The notes beneath the pieces are model-generated. The model saw only the letters and a program-made list of their open reading frames with translations, had not been told where the DNA came from and made no database searches. A DNA stretch of 11,775 nucleotides, from NCBI GenBank assembly GCA_030591125.1, contig JAUVBP010000017.1, positions 1 through 11,775 on the forward strand. Reading direction: 5' to 3'. Each line of letters starts with the position of its first letter. Position 1 is the first letter of the stretch. The position numbers were made by a program, and so were the translations under genes. Source of the stretch: Candidatus Woesearchaeota archaeon (GTDB taxonomy: Archaea > Nanobdellota > Nanobdellia > Woesearchaeales > UBA11576). Shown here piece after piece: positions 306 to 11,775 of the stretch.

Positions 306-443
306 ATGAAACAGGTATTCACAGTATCGATAGACGAGAAACTGGTACAGGACATCCGAGAACGTGCTAGAGACAGCACTTTCCGCAACAAGTCCCACCT
401 AGTAGAGGAAGCTATCAAGAAGTTCCTGGAGGACGAGAGATGA
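306..443 (+). CDS. small ribbon-helix-helix (CopG/Arc-type) DNA-binding protein
   Basis: This 45-residue gene is seen directly from the ATG at 306 to the TGA at 441-443. It has the RHH layout: an N-terminal strand with alternating residues (KQVFTVSID, residues 2-10), a first helix (EKLVQDIRERARDS, 11-24), the turn FRNKSHLV (26-33), and a second helix to residue 45. RHH proteins dimerise, insert the strand pair into the DNA major groove, and often act as antitoxins or autoregulators. There is no Shine-Dalgarno site before the ATG, and an in-frame TAG at 270-272 excludes a long upstream extension. Its stop overlaps the start of the first repeat-nuclease gene (ATGA at 440-443). The tight coupling suggests it regulates or partners the nuclease; that role is inferred. 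Confidence 0.85.
   Translation: MKQVFTVSIDEKLVQDIRERARDSTFRNKSHLVEEAIKKFLEDER
428..432 (+). promoter_or_regulatory. Shine-Dalgarno site of the first repeat-nuclease gene
   Basis: GGAGG lies inside the end of the RHH coding region, 7 bases before the ATG at 440. It fixes that start and indicates coupled translation of the nuclease gene after the RHH gene. Confidence 0.7.
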
Positions 444-1807
444 ACCTCGAAGCCCGCCTCAAGAGAGTAGTTGATAAAGATCCTGATAGGTACGACCCTG
501 AGACAATCATGAGAGTACATCAGTTTATCCTCTGGACAGAAGAGAATCCTGAAAAACACAAACCCTGGAAAGGATTTGAAAAGATTGATGATTTTGAACT
601 GTATTACAATACAAACCCAAACTTAAAAGAAAGAACATCCGAAGAACTAAAAAAAAACAAAAACGGAGGAAACGCATTTTACAGGGCACTTCTAACGATA
701 TGTCAAATAGAGTCTAAGAAAACCGGCAAAACCTTCAGAGAACTGACCGAATGGATGCCCAGACAACTCGTAGACTGGTCAGATTTCAAAACTGTCGAAG
801 ACTTCATAAAAGAATACGAGACAAACCCAAACCTGAACAGCAAAACATACGAAGAACTAAGAAAAGACAAAAACGGAGGAAACGCATTTTACAAGGCACT
901 TCTAACAATATGTCAAATAGAGTCTGAGAAGACCGGCAAAACCTTCAGAGAACTGACCGAGTGGCTACCACGAAATAACAATGACTGGTCTAAATTTGCA
1001 AATATAGCTGACTTTAAAAAAGAATACATGACAAACCCGAACCTCCGAGGAAGAACACCTGCAGAGCTAATGAACGATAAGAAGAAAGGAGGGAAAAAAT
1101 TCTACAATGCACTACGAAAATTCGTCACTAAAATATCTAATGGAGATGACATAAAAAGAGCATCTCTGATGAAAAAAGTATTAGTGTATTCAAATAAGTG
1201 CAAACATTACAATTTTAGGAATAGCACCATTAGATTTGACTCACGACCTGAACGCATCATTGCGATACTCCTCAACAAATATGGCTTGCTTAAGAGACCT
1301 GAAGAAGGGAAGAATGTTCATGTGAAGACAAACGGGGACCATCAACACAGCATAGACTTCCTAGTCGGAAACACATTGATTGAATATCACCCATTCAATA
1401 GAAAATATGATCCTAAACAAGGACGGAACAGCAACGAGGAAGTGACAAGATACAAGTTCAAAAACATAACTAATCCTAAATATTCAGACCACTGGTTCTG
1501 GCATATCTGGGAGATAGATGATGTTTACGATATCTTGAAGGACAACGCAGTGAACCCTCTTATGAACAAGCGTTACCAGAATTTAACTAAAGAACAGTTC
1601 GAAAAACACATAGACCAGGCTTACGATAAAGCACGGAAATACGATATTACTCAAGAAGAAGAAAACAGAAGAAAGACTGAAACAACCCCTTATGGCATTC
1701 ACGCACATATCCCTATGCTACACGGACAGTTTGCGATAGATGACTTGCCCTCAAAGGACGTGGCCAATTCCGACAAAGAGATCGACAAGAAGAGGTCTGC
1801 AGCATGA
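440..1807 (+). CDS. tandem-repeat protein with C-terminal PD-(D/E)XK/Vsr-like nuclease domain, 3-repeat paralog
   Basis: This is a 455-residue protein. Residues 1-45 form an N-terminal helical segment shared with the downstream paralog (MNLE-RL start, EENPE motif). Three units with a 70-residue period follow (about 46-115, 116-185, 186-255). Their pattern is DF..EY..NPNL..+T..EL..D...GG..FY.AL..IC, ending in TEW(M/L)PR in units 1 and 2. Unit 3 is degenerate at its end and runs into the nuclease-like domain (about 264-360). That domain carries RPER with E271, IDFLVGNTLIEYHP with D306, E315 and H317, and a following D324. This order of E, D, H and D fits the Vsr-like/EDxHD branch of the PD-(D/E)XK nucleases. 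A 50-residue polar C-terminal tail is absent from the paralog. The gene overlaps its neighbours by ATGA on both sides. It is visibly more A-rich than the next gene. DNA cleavage and sequence reading by the repeats are inferences. Confidence 0.85.
   Translation: MNLEARLKRVVDKDPDRYDPETIMRVHQFILWTEENPEKHKPWKGFEKIDDFELYYNTNPNLKERTSEELKKNKNGGNAFYRALLTICQIESKKTGKTFRELTEWMPRQLVDWSDFKTVEDFIKEYETNPNLNSKTYEELRKDKNGGNAFYKALLTICQIESEKTGKTFRELTEWLPRNNNDWSKFANIADFKKEYMTNPNLRGRTPAELMNDKKKGGKKFYNALRKFVTKISNGDDIKRASLMKKVLVYSNKCKHYNFRNSTIRFDSRPERIIAILLNKYGLLKRPEEGKNVHVKTNGDHQHSIDFLVGNTLIEYHPFNRKYDPKQGRNSNEEVTRYKFKNITNPKYSDHWFWHIWEIDDVYDILKDNAVNPLMNKRYQNLTKEQFEKHIDQAYDKARKYDITQEEENRRKTETTPYGIHAHIPMLHGQFAIDDLPSKDVANSDKEIDKKRSAA
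575..1204 (+). repeat. three in-frame tandem repeats of 210 bp (70 residues)
   Basis: The units begin near 575, 785 and 995, and the DF motif recurs exactly every 70 residues (52, 122, 192). Units 1 and 2 are nearly identical over 661-754 and 871-964: 5 differences in 94 bases, all A/G transitions. Unit 3 keeps DFKKEY, NPNLRG, KGGKKFYNAL but loses the FC and W(L/I)P elements. Confidence 0.9.
1792..1796 (+). promoter_or_regulatory. Shine-Dalgarno site of the second repeat-nuclease gene
   Basis: GAGGT sits 7 bases before the ATG at 1804, inside the end of the first nuclease gene. The same spacing is used at 428-432, so both paralogs keep the same translation-coupling arrangement. Confidence 0.6.
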
Positions 1808-3903
1808 ACCTCGAGACCCGCCTCAACAAATTAGTAAAGTCTAATCCAGATATTTACACAGATGATTCTGTCGAACGTGTCAGGGAGTTCATAAGGCATA
1901 TAGAGGAGAATCCTGAGAGTCCAAGACCATTTGGCAGGATGCTTACAGATATAGCTGACTTTGAGATGTTCTACAACACACATCCAGAAATCAGAGGTAA
2001 GACTGCCAAAGAGCTTCAGGACGGCACGCCGGGAGGTAATTCATTCTATCAATCATTATTGAGATTCTGCAGGAAAGAGACAGGAGACGATCCTGTTGAG
2101 GGTGAGAGGCTTAGAGCATGGATCCCGCGAAGTCTGAATACCCGGACAGACCATACTACCTTAGAGCATTACAAGAGAGAGTATGAGGCCGATCCAAACC
2201 TCAAAGGGAAGACTGCGAAAGAACTTCTTGATGACCTCGACAATGGAGGAAACTCATTCTATCAATCATTGAGAAAGTTCTGCAAGATACAGACAAAAGG
2301 AGAGAAGGGTAAAGTAAGAGAGATGATGGGTTGGCTTCCGAAAAAAAGGAATTATTCAAGATCGAAGTATACCACAATCAAACAATTCAGACAAGAATAT
2401 GAGAACAACCCACATTTCAGAGGAAAGACACGCGGTGAGCTCTCTGAGGATGTCAGGTTTGGAGGGTCTTCTTTCCACCAGATGTTGATCAAATTCTGTA
2501 ATAAGAATACTGGTGGAGATAAGAAGAAGAGAGATAAGCTGCTGAGTTGGATACCTGCCAAGAGGAAAGATAGGTCTTCATACACGAGCATGGATGATTT
2601 CAGAGAGGAATACAATTCTACTCCTGCCTTCAAGGGGAAGACAAGGAACCAGTTGAATAAAGACAGAGAGAATGGCGGCAAGTCATTCTATAGTGCATTG
2701 ATGCGTTATTGCAGGATAAATTCAGGCGGAGATAAGAATAGACAGGTTGAGATGATGAGTTGGCTGCCGAGCGACAAGAGAAACAGGTCAGGATATGCTA
2801 TGGATGATTTCAGGCAAGAATATGCTGGTGATCCGAACCTGAAAGGTAAGACCCAGAATGAGCTGTACTTGGACAGGAACAGGGGAGGCGAATCGTTCAT
2901 GAGAGCGCTGATACGTTTCTGCAAGAAAGAGTCAAAAGGAGATAAGAAGAAAGAGGAACAGCTCCGGCAGTGGGTACCTAAGAATAATAACGATTGGTCA
3001 GACTTCACCACAGTAGGACATTTCAAGAGAGAATATGAGACTAACCCCCACTTCAAGGGGAAGAGTGCCTCTGAACTATATACAGATGATAAGCATGGAG
3101 GTGCTCGTTTCTATGGGAAGCTCATAAAGTTCTGCAGGACTAAAGCGAAAGGGGATATGAACCTACAGAGAAAGATGACGAATTGGCTGCCAAAAGACAG
3201 GTACGAGTGGGATACTTTGACCTCAATAAATGATTTCATAGAGGAATATAATAATAATCCTGAGCTGGCAGGCAGGTCTCGGACAGATATGATGAATGAT
3301 TACGGGAACATAGGTGCTGCATTCTATGCTGCACTGCGCAGATTCTGTGATATTGAGACCGGGGGAGACAAGAAAAAAACGAAAGAGATGATCAAATGGA
3401 TCCCCTACTCAGACAGGTTCTGTCATTATGACTTCGGGAAAGGACCTATCCGTTTCGACTCCAGACCCGAGCGAACAATCGCAATATTACTCAATAAGTA
3501 TGGCCTGCTGAGATCACCTGAAGAAGACGTTAACATACACGTCCCGACAAATGGAAAACGGAAGCACAGCATCGACTTCCTTGTGGGAAATACCTTCATA
3601 GAATATCATCCGCTCCACTTCAGCGATATACGTGCAGGGTTGGATTTTGATGATGTATTCCAGAAGAGATGGGAGAATATAACAAACCCTGCGTATAGTG
3701 AACATTGGCTCTGGATGATAGATAAGGTGAGTACCTTATATGATGTGCTCAAGGACCCTGAAGTAAACCCTTTGATGTACAAGAAATATCAGATGATGTC
3801 TAAAAAAGAATTCAGTGAAGATGTTAGATGGGCACGAAAAGCAACCAAGAAGTATGACGCCGCCCACCCACCTAAGAAGAGACCACTCAGAAAAGCCGCC
3901 TGA
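1804..3903 (+). CDS. tandem-repeat protein with C-terminal PD-(D/E)XK/Vsr-like nuclease domain, 7-repeat paralog
   Basis: This 699-residue protein is a paralog of the preceding gene, and the first 24 or so bases of the two genes are nearly the same. Residues 1-46 form the shared N-terminal segment. Seven repeats of 69-72 residues start near residues 47, 117, 189, 260, 331, 401 and 472. Their consensus is DF..EY..(N/D)P...GKT..EL..D...GG.SF...L..FC....GDKK....M..W(L/I)P. The nuclease-like domain (about 549-640) repeats the motifs of the first paralog: RPER with E556, IDFLVGNTFIEYHP with D591, E600 and H602, then D608 or D614. A conserved segment after it (NITNPAYSEHW and VNPLMYKKYQ) is also shared, so the domain extends to about residue 685. 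The tail is short and basic (KKRPLRKAA). No signal peptide or membrane segment is seen, which suggests a cytoplasmic DNA-acting protein. The start overlaps the previous stop (ATGA at 1804-1807). I do not recognise the repeat family. A homing-type, defence or repair role is possible. Confidence 0.85.
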   Translation: MNLETRLNKLVKSNPDIYTDDSVERVREFIRHIEENPESPRPFGRMLTDIADFEMFYNTHPEIRGKTAKELQDGTPGGNSFYQSLLRFCRKETGDDPVEGERLRAWIPRSLNTRTDHTTLEHYKREYEADPNLKGKTAKELLDDLDNGGNSFYQSLRKFCKIQTKGEKGKVREMMGWLPKKRNYSRSKYTTIKQFRQEYENNPHFRGKTRGELSEDVRFGGSSFHQMLIKFCNKNTGGDKKKRDKLLSWIPAKRKDRSSYTSMDDFREEYNSTPAFKGKTRNQLNKDRENGGKSFYSALMRYCRINSGGDKNRQVEMMSWLPSDKRNRSGYAMDDFRQEYAGDPNLKGKTQNELYLDRNRGGESFMRALIRFCKKESKGDKKKEEQLRQWVPKNNNDWSDFTTVGHFKREYETNPHFKGKSASELYTDDKHGGARFYGKLIKFCRTKAKGDMNLQRKMTNWLPKDRYEWDTLTSINDFIEEYNNNPELAGRSRTDMMNDYGNIGAAFYAALRRFCDIETGGDKKKTKEMIKWIPYSDRFCHYDFGKGPIRFDSRPERTIAILLNKYGLLRSPEEDVNIHVPTNGKRKHSIDFLVGNTFIEYHPLHFSDIRAGLDFDDVFQKRWENITNPAYSEHWLWMIDKVSTLYDVLKDPEVNPLMYKKYQMMSKKEFSEDVRWARKATKKYDAAHPPKKRPLRKAA
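1942..3426 (+). repeat. seven in-frame tandem repeats of 69-72 residues
   Basis: The units start near 1942, 2152, 2368, 2581, 2794, 3004 and 3217. At protein level they align with almost no gaps. At DNA level they have diverged far more than units 1 and 2 of the upstream gene, so this array is older or has not been homogenised recently. The most variable positions are the residues just before GG, the two residues after GG, and the one or two residues after the conserved F. Confidence 0.9.
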
Positions 3904-4908: not shown

Positions 4909-5337
4909 ATGGCCAAGAAAAAAGCTACTACAAAGAAAAAGAAGAAAGCGGTCAAGAAGAAGGAAGAGGACGATGACTGGACTGATGAGGATCTTGTAGA
5001 GGACCACGAGAATATTGACATGGAAGAGATCGATATAGATAGTCTTGAATTCACGAAATTGAAGGACCTGAAGCTAGACATGACCGACGTCAACATAGTA
5101 GCTACGATAGATTTTGTGGGAGAGACTCACGGTAAAGGTTACGGCGAGGACCCTTTCGCGATAGGTTTCCTGAGAGACAAGACCGGAGAGATAAAGATGA
5201 CTTTCTGGGGAGATGATCTCAAGGAAGCTAAACCGAAAAAGAAAATACGCATAATCAAGGCATCTGTCGGGCAGTACAGAGGACAGCTGCAGCTATACCC
5301 TAACAGGCAGATAGGTATTGAGTTCTTGGGAAAGTGA
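4909..5337 (+). CDS. OB-fold (RPA/SSB-like) nucleic-acid-binding protein with Lys-rich N-terminal tail
   Basis: This 142-residue protein has three parts. Residues 2-19 are almost all Lys with some Ala and Thr. Residues 19-45 are strongly acidic. Residues about 56-140 match the OB-fold pattern of archaeal RPA/SSB proteins: VNIVATIDFVGE, then FLRDKTGEIKMTFWGDDL (residues 87-104), then IRIIKASVGQYRGQLQLYPN (residues 113-132). The TGEI..TFWGDD strand pair and the later RGQLQL strand are the main diagnostic features. The likely role is binding single-stranded DNA or RNA in the cytoplasm, with the Lys tail adding nonspecific charge contacts; substrate is not determined. AAGGA at 4892-4896 is a possible ribosome binding site. 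It is packed between the reductase gene (1-base gap) and the membrane protein gene (GTGA overlap). Confidence 0.8.
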   Translation: MAKKKATTKKKKKAVKKKEEDDDWTDEDLVEDHENIDMEEIDIDSLEFTKLKDLKLDMTDVNIVATIDFVGETHGKGYGEDPFAIGFLRDKTGEIKMTFWGDDLKEAKPKKKIRIIKASVGQYRGQLQLYPNRQIGIEFLGK

Positions 5338-6065
5338 GAAAACAGACCCTCAAGAAGATTCTCACCGCATTGATAATACTGCTCTGCGTGAGCACTGCAG
5401 TGATGATATACATCTCCAACCTTCAATCAACAGCATTCAACCTGGGACTGTACGAAGATAAGTATGAAGAATTCAATATCTACGATAGATTCCCTGATGA
5501 TACTGACCTGAAGAACGAGACAACAAATCTGATCACCTACATGGAGTCTGGAGAAGGTGAACTCCAATCGGATTTCTTCAATGAAAGAGAGAAGACACAC
5601 ATGGTTGAAGTACGCACTCTTTTCCGTGCATCACAGATGATGCTCAACATCGCAGTGGCCATATCGATCATCACTCTTTTCCTCATATTCTACATCCTGC
5701 GGCATCTCCACATGAAGATGTCAGAGAAAGGCATTGACCAGCTACTGAAAGGTATATTCACCCGTTTCCTGATCTGGACAGGATGGATTGTCGACGGGAT
5801 AGCGATCCTTCTGGCGATCATAGCCATGACGTTCAGCACATCATTCATCAGGTTCCATGAGCTGTTCTTCAGGACAGATACCTGGATCCTCAACCCCGCG
5901 ACAGACAACATGATCAATATGTTCCCTCAGGAGTTCTTCCTTGACATGTTCCTACGGATCATCTTCATGAGCATCCTCTTTGCGACAGTGATGCTTGTGG
6001 CAGGATACCTGATGAGATTAGGTGTTCCAGAAGGCATAAAAGAAAGATTCCACAGGATTAAATAA
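5334..6065 (+). CDS. DUF1461 (TIGR01906-like) integral membrane protein
   Basis: This 243-residue protein starts at a GTG that overlaps the OB-fold stop (GTGA at 5334-5337). Four hydrophobic segments are visible at about residues 9-29, 104-123, 145-168 and 205-226. The large loop after the first helix carries FFNEREKTHMVEVRTLF (81-97). The loop between helices 3 and 4 carries WILNPATDNMINMFPQEFF (184-202). These two motifs, roughly an E..HM.DVR and a NP..D.(L/I)...P..FF signature, are those of the DUF1461 family of four-helix membrane proteins, whose function is not established. Its 3' end overlaps the convergent kinase gene by 8 bases, so transcripts from the two genes are complementary at their ends. 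Family assignment is by recalled motif only. Confidence 0.8.
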   Translation: MRKQTLKKILTALIILLCVSTAVMIYISNLQSTAFNLGLYEDKYEEFNIYDRFPDDTDLKNETTNLITYMESGEGELQSDFFNEREKTHMVEVRTLFRASQMMLNIAVAISIITLFLIFYILRHLHMKMSEKGIDQLLKGIFTRFLIWTGWIVDGIAILLAIIAMTFSTSFIRFHELFFRTDTWILNPATDNMINMFPQEFFLDMFLRIIFMSILFATVMLVAGYLMRLGVPEGIKERFHRIK

Positions 6066-6865: not shown

Positions 6866-6889
6866 GATAAGTGGAATGAGTTGTTTCAA

Positions 6890-9800
6890 ATGAGAAAAGA
6901 GGAGATTAATGTAATCAAGATACTGTTTGCAGTATTTACTCTCATTCTCGTGAATATCCTCATCATATCCACAGTTGGAAATAATCTTTCTGGACTCGTC
7001 ACCCAACAGGAAGAGGTCTTTGCAGAAGTGCAGCAGGCTCCTGCTGAACAAGAGCCCGCCTTCCTTTCCGAAGCAGATGCTGAGGCAGCAAAACTGCCAT
7101 TGGACAGGACACCTGAATATGGTCCCACACTCGAACGCACTGATGACAATCTCCTGAACATACTGGGAAAAGATGGCTTCGCAGATCCTAGAGTAGATGA
7201 CGGGAATATCAGCGTGATAATAGTTCTGAAAGACCAGCCGCTGAGTAAGATAAGCAAAGAACATAAGGTGATCTCCGAAAAGAAGATTGAGCATAAAGTG
7301 AAAGAGCTCAGGGATATCAACAAGAAGACACAGGTCCTGAGTGAAGAGGAGATCCGTGAGATTGGTCATGCTCAGGCAATGGAGATAGAGTCCGATGCGC
7401 TGAGTGAAGAAGATAAGGCACGTCATGAGATACTGACAAGCGAGATTGAATCTGAGATGCAGGTCATGCGTCAGGGCATACTTGACGAGACCGGAGAAAA
7501 TGTCAAGGCGTCACAAGATAAGGTGCAGAGACGCATCGAGAAGTGCGGCGGCAAGATAAGGAAGAAGCTCAGGATAATGAACGCCCTCTCTGCAGACATA
7601 CCTAAGTCATGTCTCTGGGATCTGCAGAAAGAAGGAGAGATCGCTGGCGTATATGAGAACACGTTGGCTGAAGCACAGCTCGACATCAGCGTACCGACGA
7701 TATATGGTGACCTGCTTCACGCAAGAGGATATGCTGGAGGAGTATGGGACCTTGCAGTGATGGACACAGGGATTGACGCATCACATCCGAATCTCTACGT
7801 CGACTATGCAAAGACTTTCCATCCTGATTGGTTCACAAGGACTTTCCTGATATCCTATAATGACAATCCGGACAGTACAAATGACCTACAAGGCCACGGC
7901 ACCCACGTCGCAGGCATCGTCGCAAGTACACATCCCACATATAGAGGCGTTGCATATGGCCTCGACAAGCTGATCAATGTGAAAGCTGGTTTCCGCACTG
8001 GAGGCGGTGGAGGGAGCATGTTCGATGATGACATGATGGATGGTGCAGACTGGGCCATATACACTGCTGGAGCTGACGTGCTGAGCTATAGTTTCGGAAG
8101 CGGTCATTCTTCAAGTGATGACTGCAGCAGCTGCCGTTTCTTTGATGCTATCGTCGATAATCTTAATGTTCCTATAGCTGTATCTGCAGGTAATAGTGGT
8201 GCTTATGGTAACAATACGGTAGGCTTGCCTGCAATTGCATATAATATATTCAGCGTCGCGAGTGTATATGATTATGGCACCACAAGCAGGAGCAATGATG
8301 CTGTAAGCTATTTCAGTAGCCGTGGCTATTCTGCAGGCGGCAGGATAAAACCAGATATAGCTGCGCCAGGCACTTCAATAATTTCAACAAAATCAAGCGC
8401 AGCACCTTGTTTAGTAGGTTGTTCCTGTTCAGACAATTTAATGACTTGTTCAGGCACCAGCATGGCATGCCCTCATGTCTCCGCTGCAGCAATACTTGCT
8501 CTTGACATGACATCCTGGAGAAACCCTGCGGTCCTAAAGGCACTTCTCATAAATACTGCGGAGAGCTCAGGTACATTCTCTGACAAGATGGATTATGGTT
8601 GGGGATACCTTGACCTTGACCATGCTTATGCACACCGCAACGACCTGTTCTCAAGCACTGTAGCAGAGAATGGAGGTTACAAGCTTTACAAAGGCCACCT
8701 CGACGCAGGTGAGAAAGTTACACTGGTCTGGCATAGGCACGTCAACTATGGTGGAAGTAGCTACCCGAGCACATACTATACAGTGAATGATCTCGACCTC
8801 CACATGTATGATGCTAACAGCAACTCTTATCATGATAGGTCCATAGCAGTCAAGGAGAACGTGGAGCAGGTAGAATCTTCCGGAAGCTATGATGTCGTTG
8901 TGAAGGTGAAAGGATACACATCTAATTTCTATCATGGCTCAAATTATGAATCATACGGTCTTGCCACAGAAGATGGGTTCTACTCTACAACTAAACCCAC
9001 AGTGACTGGTACAGTATCCCACCCTACAACAATATATGATGATGAGCTGCCATTCACCATCAATGTCCAGGTCTCAAACACAGGAGGTACGAACGCGCAC
9101 AGCTCGCATCCTACACTGTATCTTGCTTCAGGCCTGACAGTCTACTCCAGCCCATCATCTATCTCACCGATCTCTGCTTACAGCTCTGACACGGCGACAT
9201 GGCTCATCAATGCGAACAGCCTCGGTACAAAGTCAGGCATCTACGCGAGATACGGGCACTACAGTTATGGGATATATGAATATGGGACAACTTCAACAAC
9301 ATCAGTCACCATCCTTGACGATGACACAGCACCACCATATTTCTACAAATGGCTCTACGCCAGCTCAATATATGGAAGCTCATCCGCATCAGTCACAGCA
9401 TATCTTGTTGACGACAGCGGACTCAGTGATGTTGAACTGGAATATGATTATGACAATGACGGAAATCCTGAAGACAGCATAAACATGAGCATCATAGGTA
9501 CTCGCGCAATCGGGACTATACCTGCACCAAACAAGACATATGAGACCAAGACCCTGTCATTCAGGGTCACAGCAACAGACGGAGACGATGATTGGACAGG
9601 AGACTCATTAGCTACAACCTCATCAAAGAGATACATCTACATCCGTGATGATGATACTGCTGCACCTGCATTCAGTGATTGGCAATTCACAGATACGGGA
9701 GATGTAAATGATCCTATACCCGTCTCGGTCACCATAACTGATGCCAGCGGCATCGAATATGCCACACTATACTATGATTATGGGGCTGACGGGAACATAA

Positions 9801-11775
9801 ACGGCAGCGTCAATCTCACCGATTCGGGGAATGTTTGGTCCGGCATCATACCCGCTCCAGGCCCTGATTATACAGGGATGTCCACGACATTCTTCGTGGA
9901 AGCGCAGGATAATGACAATGATGGTCGGGTAGGCGACAACATAACTGCAATCTCCTCTACGCAGAACGTAAGTATAACCGATGATGACACTGCTCCACCT
10001 TCTTTCGACGCCTGGCGTTTCTCAAGCACAGCATTCGGGATTGATGAACTGATAGTCAACGTCACCATAAGTGATGAGTCAGGACTTGCAAGTGTAAGAC
10101 TATTTTATGATTATGAGGCAGATGGCATTGATGATATCCTCAACATGTCACCTGATGGGTCGTATTGGCTAGGCACAATACCTGCACCAGGTGTGGCAAG
10201 AGAGACAAAGGATGTAGTGTTCTTTGTGGAAGCGATTGACGATGACTATGACATGACCGGGGATTCATTAGGACTGAACTCTTCCAACTTCACCATAACA
10301 GTGCTGGACGATGACACAGAAGACCCTTCATTCGATGTCTGGAATTTTACCCAGGCAGTATACGGGACTTCTGAGATGGAAGTATTTGTCAATCTAAGTG
10401 ATGAGAGCGGGATCAACCACTCCAAAGTATATTATGACTATGGGGATGATGGGTCAATAGAAGGAAGCGTGAACATGACCCAGACAGGCACTCTCTGGAA
10501 CGCGACCATCCCTGCTGCAGGCGTTTCATACGAGACAGGCAATGTAAGTTTCATTATCGAAGCTCAGGATAATGATAATGACAGGACCGGCGACAACCAG
10601 ACAAAGAACTCCACAGCGACAATAGTCCATATATTGGATGATGACGACACGACACCGACAATAACCGATATCAACCACTCAAGCGCGACCGTGTGGAGCG
10701 ATGAGGTATTTGTGACAGCAAACCTTACTGACGCTAGCGGCATAAGTAACGCAAGACTGTACTATGACTACGGAGATGATGGCAACATAAATGGGTCCAT
10801 CTGGATGGATCAGGATGGAGACATATGGAATGCTTCCATCCCCGCTTCAGAAGGGAAATACGAGCTTGAGAACATCAGTTTCATCATCGAGGCAGAAGAT
10901 GGCGATTCAGACAGGGAAGGAGATTCTAGCTTCGAGAATTCCTCAAGACAATTCATTCTCGTCACTGACGATGATACCTCCTACCCTGTCTTTAATTCTT
11001 TTGATTACCCTGACATCAGCAACTATTCGAGCACGATAGACGTGACAGTGAACCTGACTGACGCCAGTGGCATCGAGTATGCGAAGATATACTACATCCA
11101 TGGCGAGGAGTACCCGAACTACAGTTCTATGGTGATGGATCAAGATGGCGACATATGGAATGCTACGCTGCCAGCACCAGGAGAGTTATTCCAAGGCAAC
11201 TATACACACTTCAAGATTGAGGTCAATGATAACGACGGGGATATCGCGAATGACTCATTGAAGCTCAACTCATCGACACAACAGATCCTCATAAACGACC
11301 CTATCGCGGAAGTGACGATACACAGACCTGCACATTCATCTGTCCTCACGTCAGCCTCAGTCGAGTTCAACATAACAGTGACTGAACAGGTCGAATGGAT
11401 GAACATGTCAAATGACTCTTCACCTTTCAACAACCTCTGCACATCCTGCGATGGATACACTGCATCCGCAACGATGGATGAAGGGGTGCACAACATACAC
11501 GTGAAGGTGGCTGACAGCACAGGGAACATCAGTGAACAGACTGCCACATTCACGATTGACAACACCGAACCAGTCATACACAACTACAACCTCGGCGAAA
11601 ATATGACCATCACGGGAAGAGAGAACATCACATTGACAGTGAACTATACTGAAGCGTTCCTCGATAAGATAATGCTGAACAGCCATGATGCAGGCAACCA
11701 CGAGCTGGTGGAGTGCTCTTCAGGCACAGACCAGACCTGTTCATATGTCCAGGACATGTCAGACCGCGTGCACGG
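6890..11775 (+). CDS. giant secreted subtilisin-like (S8) serine protease with Asp-rich repeat stalk, partial at 3' end
   Basis: The frame is open from the ATG at 6890 to the window edge, at least 1628 residues. A hydrophobic segment (about 9-28) after MRKEEINVIK is a signal peptide or membrane anchor. Residues 105-265 form an inhibitor-I9-like propeptide, apparently split by a charged helical insert (about 118-210). The S8 catalytic domain (about 273-570) is complete: D292 in VMDTGID, H336 in GHGTHVAG, oxyanion N435 in SAGNSG, and S524 in GTSMACPHVS. A beta-sandwich follows (about 595-690, with VNDLDLHMYDANSN), then a CARDB-like segment (710-805). Six Asp-rich repeats span 810-1469. From 1470 an Ig-like region begins and continues out of view. 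Many N-X-S/T sequons fit a glycosylated cell-surface protein. The likely role is extracellular protein degradation or surface maturation; substrates are unknown. No Shine-Dalgarno site precedes the ATG. Confidence 0.92.
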   Translation, partial: MRKEEINVIKILFAVFTLILVNILIISTVGNNLSGLVTQQEEVFAEVQQAPAEQEPAFLSEADAEAAKLPLDRTPEYGPTLERTDDNLLNILGKDGFADPRVDDGNISVIIVLKDQPLSKISKEHKVISEKKIEHKVKELRDINKKTQVLSEEEIREIGHAQAMEIESDALSEEDKARHEILTSEIESEMQVMRQGILDETGENVKASQDKVQRRIEKCGGKIRKKLRIMNALSADIPKSCLWDLQKEGEIAGVYENTLAEAQLDISVPTIYGDLLHARGYAGGVWDLAVMDTGIDASHPNLYVDYAKTFHPDWFTRTFLISYNDNPDSTNDLQGHGTHVAGIVASTHPTYRGVAYGLDKLINVKAGFRTGGGGGSMFDDDMMDGADWAIYTAGADVLSYSFGSGHSSSDDCSSCRFFDAIVDNLNVPIAVSAGNSGAYGNNTVGLPAIAYNIFSVASVYDYGTTSRSNDAVSYFSSRGYSAGGRIKPDIAAPGTSIISTKSSAAPCLVGCSCSDNLMTCSGTSMACPHVSAAAILALDMTSWRNPAVLKALLINTAESSGTFSDKMDYGWGYLDLDHAYAHRNDLFSSTVAENGGYKLYKGHLDAGEKVTLVWHRHVNYGGSSYPSTYYTVNDLDLHMYDANSNSYHDRSIAVKENVEQVESSGSYDVVVKVKGYTSNFYHGSNYESYGLATEDGFYSTTKPTVTGTVSHPTTIYDDELPFTINVQVSNTGGTNAHSSHPTLYLASGLTVYSSPSSISPISAYSSDTATWLINANSLGTKSGIYARYGHYSYGIYEYGTTSTTSVTILDDDTAPPYFYKWLYASSIYGSSSASVTAYLVDDSGLSDVELEYDYDNDGNPEDSINMSIIGTRAIGTIPAPNKTYETKTLSFRVTATDGDDDWTGDSLATTSSKRYIYIRDDDTAAPAFSDWQFTDTGDVNDPIPVSVTITDASGIEYATLYYDYGADGNINGSVNLTDSGNVWSGIIPAPGPDYTGMSTTFFVEAQDNDNDGRVGDNITAISSTQNVSITDDDTAPPSFDAWRFSSTAFGIDELIVNVTISDESGLASVRLFYDYEADGIDDILNMSPDGSYWLGTIPAPGVARETKDVVFFVEAIDDDYDMTGDSLGLNSSNFTITVLDDDTEDPSFDVWNFTQAVYGTSEMEVFVNLSDESGINHSKVYYDYGDDGSIEGSVNMTQTGTLWNATIPAAGVSYETGNVSFIIEAQDNDNDRTGDNQTKNSTATIVHILDDDDTTPTITDINHSSATVWSDEVFVTANLTDASGISNARLYYDYGDDGNINGSIWMDQDGDIWNASIPASEGKYELENISFIIEAEDGDSDREGDSSFENSSRQFILVTDDDTSYPVFNSFDYPDISNYSSTIDVTVNLTDASGIEYAKIYYIHGEEYPNYSSMVMDQDGDIWNATLPAPGELFQGNYTHFKIEVNDNDGDIANDSLKLNSSTQQILINDPIAEVTIHRPAHSSVLTSASVEFNITVTEQVEWMNMSNDSSPFNNLCTSCDGYTASATMDEGVHNIHVKVADSTGNISEQTATFTIDNTEPVIHNYNLGENMTITGRENITLTVNYTEAFLDKIMLNSHDAGNHELVECSSGTDQTCSYVQDMSDRVH
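9317..11296 (+). repeat. six tandem repeats of about 330 bp encoding Asp-rich beta-sandwich-like units
   Basis: A DDDT-type marker starts units at 9317, 9647, 9980, 10307, 10637 and 10967, with spacings of 327-333 bases; the array ends near 11296. Each unit runs DDDT.(A/P)P, then DxSG(I/L), then YDYG.DGN..GS.NM(S/T), then a W..(T/S)IPA.G segment, then VEA.D.D.D..GDN. The two Asp-rich loops look like calcium-binding D-x-D-x-D loops. The sixth unit is the most divergent, having lost the YDYG.DG loop (YIHGEEYPN instead). Confidence 0.88.

Follow-up and report, generated by a model that had tools for sequence, protein, structure and literature searches.

A gene for a small ribbon-helix-helix (RHH) protein and two large paralogous genes, A and B, located near the beginning of a contig of an uncultured Woesearchaeota archaeon, appear to form one operon. 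It would belong to a small family of reader-effector operons, each led by an RHH gene, that occurs in archaea of one Woesearchaeota order. The version described here carries a predicted nuclease and probably reads nucleic acid, with a likely role in conflict with mobile elements; this explanation, taken as a whole, is held tentatively, at somewhat below an even chance. The window analyzed is the entire contig (C94; JAUVBP010000017.1), 11,775 bases long, from a genome of 1.31 Mb that is 67% complete.

All three genes are on the forward strand. The CopG/Arc-like RHH gene (306..443; 45 amino acids; Pfam RHH_1, 1.7e-6) is joined by an ATGA overlap to gene A (440..1807; 455 amino acids), and A is joined in the same manner (1804-1807) to gene B (1804..3903; 699 amino acids). 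Gene A encodes an N-terminal cap (440..583, residues 1-48), three repeats (584..1213, starting at 584, 794 and 1004) and a nuclease-like domain (1178..1669, with FDSRPER at residue 266, IDFL at 305 and IEYHP at 314). Gene B has the same architecture, with a cap (1804..1950, residues 1-49), seven repeats (1951..3414, starting at 1951, 2161, 2377, 2590, 2800, 3013 and 3226) and a nuclease-like domain (3397..3900, with FDSRPER at residue 551, IDFL at 590 and IEYHP at 599). The first-pass annotation, made from the sequence alone, had described two adjacent paralogs with a common N-terminal segment and C-terminal domain, three against seven copies of a unit of about 70 residues, and an RHH gene beside the pair. 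The frames, the sequence comparison that finds the cap and the C-terminal domain common to A and B, and the repeat profile, which counts three copies in A and seven in B, bear out this description; the RHH gene is real, and is linked to the large genes both by the ATGA overlap and by the presence of homologs upstream of their relatives.

The repeat unit is 70-72 residues long (about 71) and has the fixed scaffold that was originally noted, DF..EY..NP..GKT..EL..D..GG.SF...L..FC...GDKK...W(L/I)P. Each copy in A and B is detected by the repeat profile with an i-Evalue of 2e-25 or better, scores that are circular insofar as these same repeats contributed to the profile. Less circular are the BLASTP matches of a relative from another genome, G195, to A (1e-47) and B (9e-67) in a small database of open reading frames (ORFs) from seven loci. 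No credible match to A or B is found in Pfam, PHROGs, NCBIfam or PADLOC, B matches no PDB sequence at E up to 1, and the sole match of a profile of 29 repeats is one weak de novo protein; scanned singly against Pfam, the 29 repeats give scattered weak matches to 12 families. By these scans, which place it in no well-characterized family, the repeat is an uncatalogued modular one, as had been suspected, and no description of it was found among the open-licence papers listed by literature searches, at most 20 for each search. The proposed variability of the copy number also holds, with one to seven repeats among the genes examined, relatives included. AlphaFold2 (eight sequences) predicts four helices per unit, at fair local confidence, with a mean predicted local distance difference test score (pLDDT) of 73.3; at a full-length predicted template modeling score (pTM) of 0.32, the model does not give the overall shape of the array and speaks neither for nor against a continuous nucleic-acid-binding surface.

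The assignment of the C-terminal domain as PD-(D/E)XK/Vsr-like is supported by its model (pLDDT 86.5 and pTM 0.83 for the domain of B), which shows the common alpha-beta core predicted for this superfamily, and by comparisons with PDB and BFVD. In the PDB comparison, I-Bth0305I (3r3p) comes first and Vsr fourth, with no E below 0.001; in BFVD, viral homing endonucleases lead, again with no E below 0.001. An E, a D and an E-x-H motif, the latter position lacking a lysine, are conserved in seven of the eight members as candidate active-site residues. The effector in this operon is described as a predicted PD-(D/E)XK nuclease, probably of the EDxHD/Vsr type. A nuclease-like match is also present in G348, detected in the scan of the order with an array-plus-nuclease profile. 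In three genomes (G018, G021 and G264), the nuclease domain occurs without repeats, on a different N-terminal half, adjoining a gene identified by eye as APRT; the catalytic domain may derive from this APRT-adjacent form (loci L011, L012 and L032).

The originally proposed outline likeness to TALE nucleases holds insofar as tandem units of the recognition type, variable in number, are joined to a nuclease-like domain, but fails with respect to unit length, helix number and scaffold. TALE repeats are about 34 residues long, with two helices and a variable residue pair, and units of 70-72 residues with four predicted helices and a different scaffold fall outside the TALE and TALE-like families. 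Among the published designs found, the nearest combines a CapR array with an EDxHD/Vsr nuclease in phage introns and uses a different repeat: the source describes phage group II introns with three to five CapR-like tandem domains of about 60 residues, distantly related to Pfam CapR, DUF4379 and DUF723, and then a C-terminal domain distantly related to EDxHD/Vsr (PMC12350094). The likeness lies in the tandem array followed by such a C-terminal end. None of the 29 repeats matches the CapR, DUF4379 or DUF723 domains at E up to 5, and the archaeal system further differs in having no intron match, an archaeal host, an RHH gene and other effectors on the same repeat. From I-Bth0305I, the proteins described here differ in their unrelated, uniform repeat array; the match is modest, and homing of A and B is only a candidate function. 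The STAR, MOON and pTERF proteins are likewise tandem repeat proteins and, in the main text of PMC11417379, were tested for DNA binding; that main text contains no word starting with archae, Woese, homing or Vsr, and the comparison with the present repeats is by description. Among the known defense systems in PADLOC, A matches no family, and B gives Csm2 at 0.021 and BrxD at 5e-4, the latter with no stretch that passes; the proteins of G195, G345, G203 and G119 match no PADLOC family at 0.01.

Relatives are few and scattered. Counting the source genome in each case, the repeat profile detects 7 of 352 genomes of the order (at 1e-4), 5 of 371 in a draw from the phylum (at 1e-4) and 6 of 378 in a draw from the class (at E 0.001); the array-plus-nuclease profile detects 8 of the 352, and a scan of relatives 3 of 59. 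The same nuclease as in A and B follows five repeats in G195, whereas the effector is exchanged in two relatives: in G203, four repeats are followed by an APH-type kinase domain, and in G119, a similar N-terminal cap and a single repeat precede an APH domain homologous to that of G203. Between the repeat and the APH domain, the G119 gene (L090 4645..7524) contains three copies, identified by eye, of another repeat of about 93 residues with no Pfam match. A profile of the APH part finds three of the 352 genomes, G203, G119 and G219, the last with a gene that by eye lacks the repeat. G345 encodes a cap and four repeats without an effector, and G331 two repeats, the second of them weak; weak matches are also present in G121, G266, G354 and G455. 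The repeat-only gene of G345 (L031 2085..4192) adjoins a stretch of 165 bases matched by an Rfam tRNA model, which may include an intron and at which ARAGORN calls no tRNA, and next comes a LAGLIDADG_3 gene. In loci L010 and L029, homologous genes resembling prolyl-tRNA synthetase (by eye) lie a few kilobases from the nuclease gene, which may be due to chance. No relatives were found in viral contigs with B, the nuclease alignment, the G195 protein or the RHH alignment, nor by tblastn with B in phages or with the G195 protein and RHH in phages and plasmids, all by methods that depend on exact or near-exact words and can miss some relatives. By a near-exact-word scan of genome contigs with A4, which can also miss relatives, none of 36 stretches was confirmed; a second such scan recovered only G195 and G345, both already known.

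The RHH gene is linked to these large genes. When three RHH sequences were compared by tblastn with 17 sources, two of which duplicate a place already included, matches below 1e-10 were limited to the window, G195, G203, G119, G219 and another contig of the source genome, C69, and all six overlap or abut the start of a large gene on the same strand. Identity to the RHH of the window is 60-80%; the next match, on contig C131 (8e-9), is 42% identical and precedes a gene that by eye resembles a MoxR-type ATPase. Among the eight loci that were found by other means and include the upstream side, five (the window, G195, G203, G119 and G219) have the RHH gene upstream and three (gene C on contig C6 of the source genome, G345 and G331) do not; with an effector domain present, the count is five of six. 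C69 is left out of these counts, having been found through similarity to the RHH end of the window. In this contig (L099 154..4999), a paralogous RHH gene is followed by an ATGA-coupled pair encoding proteins of 1019 and 551 amino acids, each of which has a Pfam protein kinase domain, with HEAT repeats in addition in the longer one; their matches to PADLOC mad6 and PD-T4-6 probably reflect kinases in general. After all four kinase loci (G203, G119, G219 and C69) there is a convergent gene with a MazE/AbrB-like N-terminus, called by Pfam in three (one just below the cut-off) and by resemblance in G219.

The few freely varying positions of the repeat that were originally noted recur between genomes: the variability of 58 columns agrees among the repeats of the source genome, those of G195 and those of other relatives (Spearman 0.47, 0.51 and 0.51). 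With the columns ranked without G195 and then tested on its five repeats in one protein, the ratio of nonsynonymous to synonymous differences (pN/pS) is 2.06 for the top 6 columns and 0.63 for the other 52; the permutation test gives 10 of 10,000 on pN and 286 of 10,000 on pN minus pS. In the model, the top 10 columns map to helix 2 (20, 21, 24), helix 3 (35, 39, 42) and helix 1 (6), with three outside helices (29, 66, 70). These data support, short of proof, the view that the variable columns form a diversifying recognition face.

The kind of nuclease together with the variable helices favors nucleic acid reading, and the kinase relatives with the RHH-led layout widen this to reader-effector operons with exchangeable ends. 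Each large protein would combine an N-terminal arm of four-helix repeats with a C-terminal effector, a nuclease here and an APH-type kinase in relatives; the arm most likely recognizes nucleic acid in a helix-turn-helix-like manner, by means of those faces of helices 2 and 3 that are exposed, and the nuclease would then cut at the recognized nucleic acid. The RHH protein is probably an autoregulator of the operon. Duplication and homogenization of repeats, followed by change at the helix 2 and 3 faces, would retarget the arm. Two observations weigh against a plain TALE-nuclease reading: the same repeat carries an APH-type kinase in two relatives, and a HEAT/protein-kinase pair elsewhere in the source genome is likewise RHH-led and coupled by ATGA. 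The raised rate of change comes from five repeats of one protein and is not general. Over whole repeats, the ratio of nonsynonymous to synonymous rates (dN/dS) is 0.42-0.90 in G195 (10 pairs), 0.58 for A1/A2, 0.24 for D2/D4 (D being a further copy in the source genome) and 0.21-0.31 for four further pairs; for caps it is 0.11 for A/C and C/D, 0.49 for A/B and 0.38 for B/C, with two pairs saturated.

These further copies are on contig C6, which encodes a second ATGA-coupled pair, C (four repeats and a nuclease-like domain) and D (at least four repeats, running to the contig end), and on contig C134, with a fragment, E, that has an in-frame TAA near the contig start and an N replacing the conserved D. 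Gene D includes an exact duplication of 123 bp, the end of which is also the end of the contig, so the array of D is cut by the assembly. D and E may be parts of a single gene or two separate ones, and no overlap reaching 15 bases is present between the ends of C6 and C134. One pattern of 23 bases opens A (440-462), B (1804-1826), C and D (L009 5167-5189 and 6723-6745), with 21 of 23 identical in all four; the pattern has four matches in the genome and none for its reversed control. Synonymous sites in the remainder of the caps, by contrast, are strongly diverged (Fisher p 0.003 for A, C and D and 0.013 for all four; A/B and B/C not significant).

Repeat-profile scans found no array genes in the genus mates G001-G003, which keep the downstream TrxR-OB-Lit genes; beside TrxR they instead have a large DNA polymerase-like gene (G001 and G003) or another gene (G002), and the comparison yields no precise empty site. 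The GC content is 0.38-0.40 for A, C, D and E, 0.44 for B and 0.44-0.50 for seven neighboring genes; the lower GC and the absence from genus mates suggest acquisition. Further along the window, 5334..6065 encodes a protein with a Pfam match to Lit (lipoprotein intramolecular transacylase; E 1.5e-29), here in an archaeal genome, and a very long frame (6881..11773) that runs off the contig end looks, on inspection by eye, like a protease of the subtilisin type whose C-terminal domains are repeated.

This patchy distribution, with 7 of 352 genomes and none of the genus mates, is also what could be expected of free-standing homing endonucleases, that is, selfish genes that spread through cleavage of a long target recognized by the array, similarly to EDxHD enzymes with modular DNA-binding regions, a subject treated in PMC3943268. 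Such an origin, to which we would give roughly one chance in several, fits the proximity of the catalytic domain to I-Bth0305I and phage homing endonucleases, the several copies in one genome with the degraded fragment E, the GC of A, C, D and E below that of their neighbors, and the LAGLIDADG gene near the G345 repeat gene. In PMC6125680, 21 of 39 archaeal group I introns have ORFs with Pfam matches, all to LAGLIDADG. A homing origin agrees poorly with the RHH-led layout common to the kinase versions, and no interrupted gene or intron was seen, nor any common sequence, by eye, upstream of A and C. ATGA-coupled pairs are also unusual for homing genes.

The presence of the repeat on an APH-type kinase and the RHH-led HEAT/kinase pair indicate that the arm may instead be a sensor for swappable effectors, binding a protein or ligand, such as a viral protein, and switching on the nuclease or kinase without reading nucleic acid. 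The fast-changing surface fits host-parasite protein contacts as well, but nucleases of this kind are usually borne by DNA-binding arms, to judge from PMC3943268 and PMC12350094, and the variable positions lie on helices 2 and 3 of each unit, as in a helix-turn-helix reader; this alternative is rather improbable, at around one chance in five. Still less likely, in our estimate, is the most specific form of nucleic acid reading, in which A and B would be a natural counterpart of a TALE-nuclease pair: co-translated monomers recognizing a short and a long half-site, a few base pairs per repeat via helices 2 and 3, retargeted by repeat shuffling within an RHH-led system of nuclease or kinase effectors.

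RHH proteins are often antitoxins or repressors, as Pfam and PHROG names indicate, and the RHH gene directly upstream of A, overlapping it, gives the appearance of a type II toxin-antitoxin layout. It is nonetheless improbable that the genes have no part in target reading and serve host repair, RNA processing or a toxin-antitoxin system, in which RHH would be the repressor or antitoxin: the nuclease domain does occur without repeats beside APRT, and Vsr is a repair enzyme by its PDB title, but the array genes, unlike core repair genes, are rare, multicopy in the source genome and partly degraded, and A and B are far larger than typical toxins.

The RHH-led reader-effector operon remains the preferred, if tentative, description. 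Because ten repeats lie within 3.5 kb and the array or the effector has changed in relatives, the question is testable with purified domains. The source lineage belongs to archaea that are studied mostly through metagenomes. If the array senses something other than nucleic acid, operons led by RHH in which arms and effectors can be exchanged would represent a class of sensor-effector systems not found described among the open-licence papers listed by the literature searches; if it reads nucleic acid, targeted recognition would gain a new repeat scaffold that comes with a nuclease already attached.
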